Assembly (NCBI GenBank): GCA_031213475.1
Contig: JARUPZ010000002.1
Coordinates: 11,538,466 to 11,602,465, forward strand
Direction of reading: 5' to 3'
Length of the DNA: 64,000 nt
Source of the DNA: Nereocystis luetkeana
Lineage: Eukaryota; Sar; Phaeophyceae; Laminariales; Laminariaceae
The position numbers were made by a program, and so were the translations under genes. A model generated the notes under the pieces. That model ran no database searches. It had not been told where the DNA came from and was given only the letters and a program-made list of their open reading frames with translations. Of this stretch, positions 12,265-19,070 are shown one piece after another (the stretch's first letter is position 1; each line of letters opens with the position of its first letter).

Positions 12265-12341
12265 TTATTATTATTATTATTATTATTATTATTATTATTA
12301 TTATTATTATTATTATTATTATTATTATTATTACTATTATT
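12265..12341. repeat. (ATT)n microsatellite, 3' side of the retrotransposon
   Basis: About 75 bp of nearly perfect TTA/ATT repeats. In minus orientation it immediately follows the 3' end of the element at 12342-18858. Poly-Ile, poly-Tyr and poly-Asn frames over it are artefacts. Confidence 0.9.
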
Positions 12342-12533
12342 TCTCTTGTCATCCGACAATGTGCAGCATGATCTTCAACATGGATCACTCATAACTTTCC
12401 CGAAAGAAGAAAACCTCGGAAACAAAAGGAAACCCATGCACCAAGTCTACCTCCCTTCCGTGCCAACTTTCGGCTTGTCTACTCTATTTGCTATATTTGC
12501 TCCTTCCTTCTCATTACGTTCTATCCTTAAATC

Positions 12534-13195
12534 CTAACCTGCATCCAAGCTCCATCCCCACGCCATCGGTGTGGGTCTGTCGTCCCTCCATCCCCTGTTC
12601 CTTCTTCCTTCTTGGCGGTCCCTAAGCTGAAGCTTGAACCTCGACACCCTCCTCGAAATGGCGACCTGAGTGGTCACCGAGACGATTTGGAGCAGGCGTT
12701 CCTTCACTACCCCCTTCCTTGCCATCGACCCACCATCCCTCCCCCCCACGACGCTAGCTGCCAGCTGGTCGATGAAGTTGCTGCCCTCTACCCCGAGGCG
12801 CCCAAAGCTTTCCACCGCTAAGGTGGCTAGTTTGTGGCTCCGCTCGTCGAAGGACACATGTCCCGGACGCGCGTAGTGTTGGCGCTTGCGCGCCTCGGAG
12901 GTAGAGGCAGCTGATCCATCATGATCAGCGCAGCCTCCTCGCAGGTGGACCTGCGCTTGCGGGTCTGCATGGGTGACGTCCAGCAGGATGGACTTTTCCC
13001 TGTATTCCCTGTTAGGAGCGTCCCGAAGACCTCCTCTCCCGACAACGATGTCCATCCGCAGGTTCCGGTCTGCAGTGAACGGTTCGTCGCTCTCCACTTG
13101 GTGAGGGATTCCCAGCCGCTTCAGCGTGCGGGAGATCGCGTGAACCAACGGTTGATGTTGGTTTACCTGTGCCCCTGCTCTGGGACAGATGCCTG
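12534..13195 (-). pseudogene. Restriction-like endonuclease C-terminus of the retrotransposon (frame-shifted from RT)
   Basis: The frame picks up after a one-step shift from the RT ORF. The Cys/His knuckle is split across the shift: CPCC and D-T-H in the RT frame, then ICPRAGAQ in this frame. Next come LGIPHQVESDEPF, then RNLRMDIVV (the R-x-x-R-x-D stretch that stands where R2-type enzymes have PD) and, about 20 residues on, ILLDVTHADP, the DVT strand of the PD-(D/E)XK fold. The basic C-terminus ends at 12534. This nuclease nicks target DNA to prime reverse transcription in R2-like elements. The homology call rests on motif order and spacing. Confidence 0.7.
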
Positions 13196-15259
13196 CGTGG
13201 CGTGTGTGTCTATGTCGACTGCCTCGCAGCAGGGGCACCTCACCGCCACGTGCTCCTCGATGCCTATGAAGCGCCTTCCCATGCCCACGAACTCCTCTGC
13301 TGGTATGACACGGAGCGAGTCTGTTGGCCTCGCCCGAAGGCAAGCAGTGGCTCCTGCTCCTTGTAGGCTCCTGTAGCGAGCTTTGGCGAAGGTCTTGGTC
13401 TCGCTCCCCCCCAGCGGGTCGCCTGGTCCAGGTGGGCGTGCAATCTCCGGTAGCCCCTCCAGCGAGGTTGTGTGTGCAGCGTGTCGACCCTGATTCACCA
13501 GCTTGCCCAACCTCTGTTGAGCCTTCCGGGAGTTGGTGGTTACGGCATCATGCGCCGCCAGCATGTCGGCTTCAGGGGGCCCTGGGACCAGGTCCCCCTC
13601 TGCACCCATGCTCCATTCCAGCCAGGATTCGGGGACGATGCCCTCCATCGCTTCTTTTGTCACGCCCCACGTGTCCCTGATCTCTCGCAGGCTGCCCCCG
13701 AGCTCAGCCATGATGCTCGAATGAGGGAGACCCCTCTTTACCCTGTCTCCTAGCGGGCCCGTGAGGTCTGCTAGAACCTCCGGCAGGATGCCCACCCTGC
13801 TCCCAATGGAGGCAGACATTCGCCTCGCTTCCGTCGACGGCAGCCCTAACCCTCCTGCTCCCGTAGAAAGGCGTGCTTGGGCTTGTTGGTAGGGTTTTAG
13901 AGTCAGTTGGCTGGCCGGGCACCCCTCCTGGAAAAACGACTGTGCGTCCGCCGCTCCCGGTAGCTCTAGGATATTTTCGTAGGCCCACTGAGCCCCGTTG
14001 TCGGCCCTTCGGCATGCTTCGAGTGACAGCCCCGGGTCCAGAGCCCTTTCGAGGTAGCCCGTCCGCTGCCCGAGGGATTCGACGGTGATGAGGGCCGCCG
14101 CTTGCTTGCCTGGCATGTTAGCGAGGCAGCGTGCAAGGCGGTCCGCGCCTCCGTCCCTCACTACCTCCATTGCTCGCCCCAGCACGTATTCATCCGAGCC
14201 GATCGGGACACCCACCACCGTCACCCCTCCTTCGTCTGCGATGCGGACGTCAACGCTCTCCAGGAGCGATATCTCCTCCGCCGTCGGGACGTGTCCTTCG
14301 GGTGGTAGTGCTACGGTCTTAGCGGGGTTGACCACAATGCCGATGTCGTCTAGCTCTCGCCGGAGGAAGGCAAAAGCTCTAATCGTGTTGGCCGTGACCC
14401 CCATAAGGCCGAGAGATACATCGTCCATGTAGGCGAAGACTTCCACTCCTTCTCCTTCGAACTCCAGTCGGAAACGCTTCAGCCCTGGTCGCAACGCCAG
14501 ACAGAACATTGCTGGCCCAATGGGGTCCCCTTGCTGGACACCACTGGAGCAGGCGATCGTCCTGGTCTCCCCTGAGTCCATCCGGAAATACACGTCGGCG
14601 GGTCTTGTGCCGTAGCACTTCGCCACAAACGGCGTGAGCGCTGGAACGCAGTTGGCCGCCTCTTCAAGCACCGCCGTCCGTTTAACCGTGTTGAAGGCGT
14701 TGGAGCAGTCCGTTAGGACGACCCAGTTGCCCGTCTCCTGTAACGTCCTAGCCCTCAGTCCCACATGCTCCACTCCTCCGGGTACGGCGACCCCAAACTG
14801 CCTCACCTCTCGGTTGACCTCCTCCAACCGCGGCCGCCACTGTCGCATAGCCCCCGCGGTGATGAGCCGCCTCCATGTCATGCCCACGCAAACCGGCCGG
14901 CACTTTTCCCCCAAGGCGGTGAGGCTCGACTGCAAGAAGAGCTGCCAGAATTCTGGCGGGAACGCGTCCGGCTCGTCGACGATTCTCCGCCAGAAGGCTG
15001 TCATGCCCTTTCCGAACTCTTCCCGCCCGATGTCGGTGTGGATGATGGATTGCAGGTGCGCAAAGCGTTGACCATCGTTTCCGGGGCCTGAAAGGGCACT
15101 GCGGGAGCTGATGACGTCGAAGAGCACCTTGGAGGCGTACTCATCGTCAGGGCGCCACGGAGGGGCGTTTCCGTCTTCCACCTCGGTGGCGGTCGCCAAC
15201 ACCGCAGCCGCCGCCGCCGCGGACACCGCGGCGCGATCTTCGGAGGGGAACTTGGCCAC
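13163..15259 (-). CDS. Retrotransposon reverse transcriptase ORF
   Basis: A 698-codon frame. RT motifs: LTDCSNAFNTVKR (motif A Asp near residue 184), SSGVQQGDPIGP (motif B, 238-249), FAYMDD (catalytic YMDD, 277-280) and VVNPAKTVALPP shortly after. A thumb and connector follow, then RYRSLQGAGATACLRARP, a conserved stretch just before the Cys/His knuckle in R2/NeSL-like proteins. The frame ends at 13163 because of the shift into the endonuclease frame. In-frame text continues upstream beyond a stop near 15293 (about 15538-15293), so the native protein was longer. Codon use is GC-rich and unlike the AT-rich surroundings. Confidence 0.8.
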   Translation of the reverse strand: MAKFPSEDRAAVSAAAAAAVLATATEVEDGNAPPWRPDDEYASKVLFDVISSRSALSGPGNDGQRFAHLQSIIHTDIGREEFGKGMTAFWRRIVDEPDAFPPEFWQLFLQSSLTALGEKCRPVCVGMTWRRLITAGAMRQWRPRLEEVNREVRQFGVAVPGGVEHVGLRARTLQETGNWVVLTDCSNAFNTVKRTAVLEEAANCVPALTPFVAKCYGTRPADVYFRMDSGETRTIACSSGVQQGDPIGPAMFCLALRPGLKRFRLEFEGEGVEVFAYMDDVSLGLMGVTANTIRAFAFLRRELDDIGIVVNPAKTVALPPEGHVPTAEEISLLESVDVRIADEGGVTVVGVPIGSDEYVLGRAMEVVRDGGADRLARCLANMPGKQAAALITVESLGQRTGYLERALDPGLSLEACRRADNGAQWAYENILELPGAADAQSFFQEGCPASQLTLKPYQQAQARLSTGAGGLGLPSTEARRMSASIGSRVGILPEVLADLTGPLGDRVKRGLPHSSIMAELGGSLREIRDTWGVTKEAMEGIVPESWLEWSMGAEGDLVPGPPEADMLAAHDAVTTNSRKAQQRLGKLVNQGRHAAHTTSLEGLPEIARPPGPGDPLGGSETKTFAKARYRSLQGAGATACLRARPTDSLRVIPAEEFVGMGRRFIGIEEHVAVRCPCCEAVDIDTHATQASVPEQGHR

Positions 15260-18110: not shown

Positions 18111-18840
18111 TCTGCATGCCGGGCATCGTAGGTCGGTTGCCGCTCTGACGCGGAGGGCGGCATAGCAAGGCAGGTGGAGTCGGAGAGGGCAGCTGCCGAG
18201 ATGGACCATTGGGGTCACCAATGCCTCGTAGCACACGCAGCAGTCTTCCGGGGGTTCCACTCGGGGCTGCCCATTCTCTGCGGGTGGCGGCGGCGGCGGC
18301 GATTCTGGCGTCGACGCTGGTCCCGAGCTCCCCCCCTCCCGCGCTCCTCCGGGCATCGTCGGTGGCGTCCTTGGTAGCGGCGTCCGCGCCGGTCCGGTCG
18401 CTGGCTGCGATGACGTCACATTCGCCAGCACCGCTTCCGGTGTCAAGAGCGGCGTCCCTGTCGAAGGGGGTGCCCCTGTCGGCAACGACTGGCGTGGCTC
18501 TGTCACAGGTGACGGCAGGGGTGGCGTGTCAGGCTGTAATGCGGTCGGTGGTGGTCGTGGTGTCTCCGACGGTGACGGCGCGCGTATCGAGCTTGCTGGA
18601 GGAGACCGTGGCTCTGCTTTGGACTGCCCCGTTGGCTGAGGCTGCCTTGGGCGCGGCTCGAACACTTCCGGTCGTCGTGCTGTTGGAGATAGGGTTGGAG
18701 TCTCCTGCAGCGTCTGTGACGGCGGCTGCGGGGGCGTGGGAGGCCTTTCTTCAGAGGTGGGTTGCAGACGCGCTGGTGTAGGGATCGGGGAATGAGTCCC
18801 GGTCGTGGCTGGTTGCGCTGAGAACGAGGGGTCTGGCGCC
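18060..18840 (-). pseudogene. Retrotransposon first finger ORF (Pro-rich, ends in a RING-like finger)
   Basis: The region is Pro/Ser/Thr rich from just inside the microsatellite to about 18250. A finger follows: CCVCYEALVTPMVHLGSCPL, HLPCYAAL, LRCPACRAT, which has C-x2-C, C...H-x2-C and C-x2-C spacing of RING type. The readable frame then changes to that of the 15943-18110 ORF around 18.08 kb, which suggests one ancestral ORF with a frameshift. The open frame continues into the AAT repeat as poly-Ile, so no native start codon can be assigned. Confidence 0.55.
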
Positions 18841-18858
18841 TGGACCGGTGCAGGTACC

Positions 18859-19070
18859 ATTATTATTATTATTATTATTATTATTATTATTATTATTATT
18901 ATTATTACTATTATTATCATTATTATTATTATTATTATTACTATTATTATTATTATTATTATTATTATTATTATTATTATTATTATTATTATTATTATTA
19001 TTATTATTATTATTATTATTATTATTATTATTATTATTATTATTATTATTATTATTACTATTAGTATTAT
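18859..19070. repeat. (ATT)n microsatellite, 5' side of the retrotransposon
   Basis: About 210 bp of ATT with a few ACT/ATC variants, in the same strand orientation as the array at 12265-12341. On the minus strand it is preceded by TTGTCGGAAGG...CACAATAATA, which resembles the 3' end of the retrotransposon itself. Confidence 0.9.

Follow-up and report, generated by a model that had tools for sequence, protein, structure and literature searches.

Several long interspersed nuclear elements (LINEs) with a restriction-like endonuclease (RLE) are already known to have microsatellite targets or extra domains. Members of the R2 clade proper carry one or more CCHH fingers and a Myb domain and insert in 28S ribosomal DNA. 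Dong has TAA repeats directly at its 5′ junction (seen in a Dong primer and in a 7-TAA upstream cleavage product) and a self-cleaving 5′ end (PMC3774820). Some HERO families have microsatellite targets and Togen is (TG)n-specific (PMC4640811), while Utopia and NeSL, found also in SAR eukaryotes, carry an Ulp1-like protease and RNase H as extra domains (PMC4640811, PMC5348765). Here we describe an element in a 64,000-nucleotide stretch of the brown alga Nereocystis luetkeana (contig JARUPZ010000002.1, positions 11,538,466 to 11,602,465; this whole stretch is "the window" below). Judged from its sequence, the minus-strand DNA at window positions 12342-18860 is a dead, 5′-truncated LINE copy of R2-type architecture. 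We consider it probable (about 0.7) that the copy belongs to a large, recently mobile family of R2-like RLE LINEs that prefers AAT/TAA sites, especially the tails of its own relatives.

The element resembles R2 LINEs in its single open reading frame (ORF), reverse transcriptase (RT), CCHC knuckle and C-terminal RLE motif, and R2 proteins are its sole significant RT relatives in the PDB. It departs from the R2 clade proper in having no C2H2 or Myb match in Pfam and a RING-H2 finger instead (the 5′ end of the ORF is not fixed), and in the flanks of the sampled copies, which differ and do not represent one site. No Rfam family, rRNA included, matched the window at gathering scores. With Dong and the R4 clade the element shares the RLE LINE type and, in part of its copies, TAA at the 5′ junction; many other copies lie outside TAA, and it forms chains on relatives' tails. 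A ribozyme like that of hepatitis delta virus, present in Dong/R4, was not found in Rfam scans, the true 5′ ends of the element not being fixed. HERO and Togen are likewise RLE LINEs, some of them on microsatellites; the element differs from these in its RING-H2 N-terminus and in having TAA rather than TG. Where Utopia and NeSL carry protease or RNase H, it has a RING. The literature searched (partial coverage, Repbase not included) contained no description of an RLE LINE with a RING zinc finger, and in PMC5678591 'ring finger' is a name for part of the RT.

The element and its relatives

An initial reading of the window (the first-pass annotation) had placed an element between two ATT arrays on one strand. 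This was borne out: the arrays, (TTA)25.7 at 12265-12341 and (ATT)71 at 18859-19071, share a strand and the space between them is filled by GC-rich minus-strand DNA with long reading-frame pieces. All of the motifs it had named are encoded there, namely Cys/His clusters, an RT with YMDD (Pfam RVT_1, E=1.8e-14), CPCC...H and an R-x-D...LLDVT motif that reads RNLRMD...LLDVT; a G-rich linker and four clusters lie upstream.

We searched the window's genome (465,085,209 bases, 1987 contigs) for relatives; of 7832 candidates 24 were scored, and these yielded 46 matches. The matches listed include 17 copies of a subfamily A (L005-L021) and six other copies of subfamily B, to which the window copy belongs (L022-L027, the last three being L035-L037). 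The RT of the B copies is 95.8-97.1% identical to that of the window, and a copy C (L038) is A-like, at about 93-94% to A. The B copy L036 has an unbroken frame of 2484 amino acids (aa), and the family has therefore probably been mobile in recent time. An 18-nt 3′ signature, CACATTGTCRGAWGGCAA, is found 4711 times across these 465 Mb, against 1 occurrence of the reversed control.

In intact copies the protein, of ~2500 residues, is ordered RING-H2 finger, Cys/His clusters, conserved domain, Gly-rich linker, RING-like finger, RT, CCHC knuckle and putative C-terminal nuclease. Alignment with L036 locates the damage in the window copy. The 5′ end of this copy, at 18860 (sense 841), falls at position 1928 of the L036 sense strand, and homology between L036 and L037 begins at 618; the window copy is ~1310 bp shorter than L036 at its 5′ end, with a larger shortfall against copies reaching further upstream. 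On this alignment we rejected both a full-length element spanning the two arrays, the copy being 5′-truncated, and an ATG at the edge of the 5′ array as true start, which is an accident of the truncation joint. A 652-bp deletion relative to L036 at 15555/15556 has removed the fifth Cys/His finger, a TAA stop stands in frame at 15293-15295, and the frame changes near 18070 and 13200, because of which the knuckle is divided over two frames. The features are as follows.

12265-12341, minus strand: (TAA)n tail of ~26 units, directly after the 3′ terminus CATTGTCGGATGACAAGAGAAA, as in relatives
12342-12536, minus strand: 3′ untranslated region (UTR), terminating in a one-change form of the family 3′ motif CACATTGTC[AG]GA[AT]GGCAA
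12537-13232, minus strand: second half of the knuckle and putative RLE region, with RNLRMD at 13050-13067 and LLDVT at 12972-12986
13166-15292, minus strand: RT piece (RVT_1, E=1.8e-14), with YMDD at 14420-14431 and knuckle CPCC at 13226-13237, the frame change following
15293-15634, minus strand: pre-RT domain (KLWYLMPALLHSPDGR...), holding the TAA stop, with a counterpart in L001 and L036
15555-15556, minus strand: deletion junction, the missing 652 bp being L036 sense 5234-5885, fifth finger included
15640-16105, minus strand: G-rich low-complexity linker with repeat periods of 9 and 27, similar to a linker in L003 and L036
16312-17955, minus strand: Cys/His clusters 2 (17791-17955), 3 (17458-17532) and 4 (17008-17179) and conserved domain (RPPHPAEL...RRLYIGPHVQE)
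18114-18242, minus strand: cluster 1, RING-H2 finger, with a ligand His replaced by Leu in the window copy
18860, minus strand: 5′ truncation point from the L036 alignment, abutting the (AAT)n array
18859-19071, minus strand: interrupted (AAT/TAA)n array of ~71 units, read as the tail of an upstream relative, D
19072-19167, minus strand, as the element: short 3′ end of family D, ending TATATTGTCGGAAGGC...ATAATACTAATAG
12138-12264, no strand assigned: outer flank, repeat 'E', split by the D and B insertion; an insertion-free copy lies at 27480-27752

The RT of the window matches RVT_1, as do those of L001, L005 and L036. Alone it reaches E=0.05-0.06 against the PDB; an RT profile finds R2 proteins at E=1.2e-5, and with a six-sequence profile R2 proteins are the sole significant matches (E=2.5e-5 to 0.005). 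The knuckle and the R-x-D...DVT motifs are present and conserved among the copies, the single ORF has 2484 aa in L036 and 1927 aa in L001, and no Pfam match to an apurinic (APE) endonuclease or RNase H was found in P0001, P0003 or L005. The nuclease part is 73% identical between the window and the intact relative L001, with catalytic-type residues retained; it has no convincing Pfam or PDB match (nothing below E=0.08 in the PDB), and motif and conservation are the basis of its assignment. Architecture and RT similarity thus support an RLE-type LINE of the R2 group in the wide sense, which is the group that the first-pass annotation had proposed.

Relatives were also sought outside this genome. 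A pattern-based scan of a prokaryote genome collection, able to reach close relatives only, gave 14 matching stretches; a relative is encoded in 1 of them. This is L001, a 7670-bp contig filed under a Robiginitomaculum metagenome-assembled genome, whose unbroken 1927-aa frame is ended on its 5′ side by the contig end. The RT of L001 is 59% identical to that of the window, its nuclease part 73% and its N-terminal part 44%. Another contig from this assembly, L003 (G001:C111), has a 1110-aa frame in which a RING-H2-like finger and the RRLYIGPHVQE domain occur as a tandem duplicate, suggesting that finger modules multiply in the family. Since a eukaryote-type LINE sits in both contigs, they are probably eukaryotic contamination of the Robiginitomaculum assembly. 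Five scans of a viral contig collection gave no relatives.

The N-terminal Cys/His clusters

Cluster 1 has the C3H2C3 spacing of a RING-H2 finger, CCVC-x13-CPHRLHLPC-x13-CPAC in L039, and the spacing is identical in L036. Short cluster 1 pieces match the Pfam profile zf-RING_2 at E=3.5e-5 (L039) and 1.9e-4 (L036). A phmmer search of the PDB with cluster 1 returned 38 sequences at E<=10, the 25 best rows being all RING-type proteins, among them DTX1, the best (1.3e-4, the sum of two weak stretches), and AMFR (2.4e-3). A PDB search with the N-terminal alignment gave no match. Cluster 5 matches zf-RING_2 in L001 (E=2.4e-4 for the piece and 0.048 for the entire protein) and zf-RING_16 in L036 (E=4.2e-4). 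The cluster 1 matches support a RING-H2 finger in the intact relatives. In the window copy the first RING reads CPLRLHLPC in place of the CPHR[LI]HLPC of relatives, so that one zinc ligand is gone, and no Pfam family matched its RING piece. The RING-like N-terminus of the first-pass annotation accordingly holds for the intact relatives, at scores under the profile's cut-off; of the profile searches that it had proposed, those for RING gave matches on short pieces and those for the nuclease nothing convincing.

Selection was estimated from the ratio of nonsynonymous to synonymous change (dN/dS), with synonymous sites near saturation in the distant pairs. The ratio is 0.13-0.16 for RT and nuclease between subfamilies and 0.14 for the first RING, measured over 66 codons between L036 and A; the N-terminal part gives 0.25-0.31.

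The clusters could instead be generic zinc- or nucleic-acid-binding fingers rather than RINGs with E3-like function, and we give this a little less than even odds. Clusters 2, 3 and 4 match no RING profile; most of their Cys and His are invariant in four aligned sequences, L036 lacking the first Cys of cluster 4. The scores of clusters 1 and 5 fall under the gathering cut-offs (24.4 bits against 27.3 for zf-RING_2 on a 67-aa piece), the whole 2484-aa protein of L036 (P0003) has no RING match at E<=1 and the whole of P0001 has one, at E=0.048. The composite nature of the DTX1 row also fits generic fingers. The RING-H2 spacing of cluster 1 and the uniformly RING-type names of its best PDB rows argue the other way.

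TAA tails, chains and insertion points

At the 3′ ends examined the terminal motif is followed by a short TAA-like or A-rich tail (the 3′ ends of L020 and L023 are out of view), and tail lengths among copies run from 3 to >100 units. Because relatives' 3′ ends likewise run from motif to tail, the window 3′ array is evidently the element's own. The 5′ array is preceded by the 3′ terminal motif of another family, D; the labels D, F and G are given here to motif-bearing 3′ ends distinct from A and B. Since the array follows the D end we read it as the tail of this upstream relative, and the pre-existing genomic microsatellite that the first-pass annotation had taken as landing place is not upheld. 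A D end also lies upstream of the B pieces in L036: window sense 544-778 and L036 367-617 align at 72.8%, part of the array included, and CGGAAGGATATTCG and TACGCTATATTGTCGGAAGGC are common to the two D ends outside the array. When the element's 3′ end was compared with its upstream flank, the first result was near chance (97 of 500 shuffles scored as high) and two further comparisons were equalled in score by 66 and 59 of 4514 control segments; the likeness was later supported by L001 and L036. Arrays beside a LINE may be neighbours' tails and not a pre-existing genomic target. A 289-nt query of 3′ UTR and TAA tail was also used; among its 40 scored matches, the best of 2000 candidates by a score that rewards TAA and thus favours long tails, 11 continue well into TAA, window and L036 included.

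Relatives are found in chains. Along the sense strand the window reads D, (TAA)71, window copy, (TAA)26. L036 has a D end, a B fragment of ~144 bp, (AAT)22 and the long B copy, with TAA arrays on either side of the latter. In L035 16 nt separate a truncated B from an A end whose tail is short and A-rich; L017 runs TAA, B fragment, TAA, F fragment, TAA, truncated A, a TAA-like stretch, G fragment, TAA. Both members lie on the same strand at every tail junction seen. Twenty B 3′ ends were drawn from the 40 scored matches (only 19 distinct sites, because L064 and L065 share one flank), and three of them (L053, L055 and L060) have another truncated relative, in the same orientation, directly downstream of the tail. 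For an element to adjoin a tail by chance, a hand estimate assuming 10^4 to 10^5 copies and a 20-bp reach gives a rate of ~2e-4 to 2e-3 per tail. Viewed from the 5′ side, 3 of the 10 long non-window copies with a visible junction (L036, L035 and L017) follow a relative's tail. Eight further B copies are all short-tailed; the junction is visible in six, and in one, L077, it comes after a degenerate TAA-rich stretch behind a relative's motif, giving 4 of 16 non-window 5′ junctions at TAA tails. The signature sites are clustered as well: among the first 100 listed, all on contig C1, 8 pairs of neighbours lie within 1.1 kb on one strand and 0 on opposite strands, and the maximum of same-strand pairs at this distance in 20000 uniform simulations was 5. 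Relatives adjoin TAA tails far above the hand-estimated chance rate, which supports the preference in part; it is not strict. Of the (TAA)n insertion suggested by the first-pass annotation, enrichment of junctions at relatives' TAA tails stands, but most sampled copies have no long (ATT)n on one side or on either, the outcome that the annotation had itself named as a refutation.

For six B copies both flanks are available, and the last letters of the 5′ flank are found again next to the tail. The recurrence is clear in three (AATACTAACCTA, ATATAAAT and AATAATATTAA, whose first letters may equally belong to the tail); in the remaining three (ATAG, AATATT and ATAAT) it is short or merges into the tail. 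The A copy L040 has AATACGATAG on either side, within a repeat resembling a miniature inverted-repeat transposable element (MITE). These recurrences resemble short duplications of an A+T-rich target that has AAT/TAA letters. We note that another A copy, L014, lies within a satellite of GATCGTTCAACGATC-type units.

A number of observations count against a family that prefers AAT/TAA sites and relatives' tails and has moved recently under selection. The other 29 of the 40 scored 3′ ends stop early in TAA, at 216-237, and the tails of subfamily A are A-rich and not pure TAA. Seven of the 10 long copies are not at a tail (L014, L016, L021, L033, L038, L040 and L042), L033 adjoining an inverted relative rather than a tail; 5 of the 6 further B junctions are outside TAA tails, making 12 of 16 elsewhere; and the tail junction of L035 has 16 nt between tail and B. 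Insertion sites include the MITE-like repeat and the GATCGTTCAACGATC satellite. The strand bias weakens with distance, with 8 same-strand and 2 opposite pairs at 2 kb and 14 and 5 at 10 kb, the chance rate is estimated by hand, and the simulated spacing is uniform. Part of the clustering could come from local duplication. Between two close copies of subfamily B, L036 and L025, dN/dS is 0.48.

Other explanations were considered. The TAA arrays flanking the window copy, and the long copy in L036 too, would fit a strict, Dong-like specificity for (TAA)n microsatellites that predate any family member. The sampled copies contradict this: most 3′ ends have short tails and then other DNA, most non-window 5′ junctions seen are not TAA, and the copy of the outer repeat E at 27480-27752, which is without the D and B insertion, has no array. 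(The right half of E, ~19168-19260, scores 36, the maximum being 24 among 2038 other segments.) We rejected strict specificity as highly improbable; at most a subset of the family would be strict. At the opposite extreme there would be no targeting, the arrays being expanded tails and the tail-to-head neighbours the result of random insertion and local tandem duplication. The wide variation in tail length agrees with this, and clusters may be duplicated blocks, one duplicated flank (L064, L065) having been seen. The chains, however, combine different families (D, B, F, A and G), unlike products of simple duplication; 3 of 20 tails directly adjoin another element; and opposite-strand neighbours are absent within 1.1 kb among the 100 listed sites. 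An origin with no targeting therefore appears quite unlikely.

R2-type RTs jump templates, and a chain might be a single integration in which the RT, having come to the 5′ end of an RNA, switches to the 3′ tail of a second one, with no target preference. Such end-to-end jumping predicts the observed order and orientation, and many of the pieces are short. In L055 and L060, however, divergence is greater in the downstream piece (83.6% to the B reference and 94.6% to the A reference) than in the B end upstream of it, which is at 97-98% to L036, and in L036 the D tail is degenerate and the next tail nearly perfect. The divergence gap may partly reflect subfamily and not age, and in L053 both pieces are at ~97%. 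We regard template jumping as unlikely, if worth serious attention.

For a family that prefers AAT/TAA sites and relatives' tails, we infer the following sequence of events. The RNA would end in the fixed motif and a short UAA or A-rich tail. The nuclease would nick A+T-rich DNA containing AAT/TAA, and the RNA tail would pair with the nicked site. Target-primed reverse transcription would then copy the RNA, frequently incompletely. The TAA tail of each insertion could expand to a microsatellite, a preferred site for the next relative, and repeated insertion into tails would produce the same-strand chains. A family that possibly makes the targets it uses, and that has thousands of 3′ ends within a single genome, offers a natural test of tail pairing against protein recognition. 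A more ambitious proposal is of a LINE clade whose RT and nuclease come with a RING-type E3 ubiquitin ligase in cis and which farms its landing sites, the (TAA)n of the genome being largely element-made and then element-used; we hold this to be tentative and somewhat unlikely. A RING finger fused to a LINE protein, were it active, suggests possible steering of host ubiquitination, affecting chromatin access, ribonucleoprotein turnover or defence evasion. If true, this would be a direct test case for element-host conflict.

Other repeats in the window and beside the copies

A second, different LINE-like RT frame of 538 aa lies near the element, at 9536-11152 on the plus strand. The window also contains a (TTA)n array of ~60 units at 26858-27036, with no LINE 3′ motif seen adjoining, and four to five degenerate tandem repeats of ~200 bp at 1743-2731 (families D4, D5 and D8). 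The sequence TACCAGGTA and its reverse complement TACCTGGTA occur 19 and 12 times, respectively, in the 64 kb, where even base composition would give ~0.5 occurrences of a 9-mer, both strands counted; the motif is also scattered in the flanks of many copies. Very short pieces in the 3′ flank of L009, in L058 and in L017 consist of ACACTACACATTGTCGGATGGCAAGC with ATA repeats, or nearly so, and resemble minimal or non-autonomous elements that borrow the 3′ signature.

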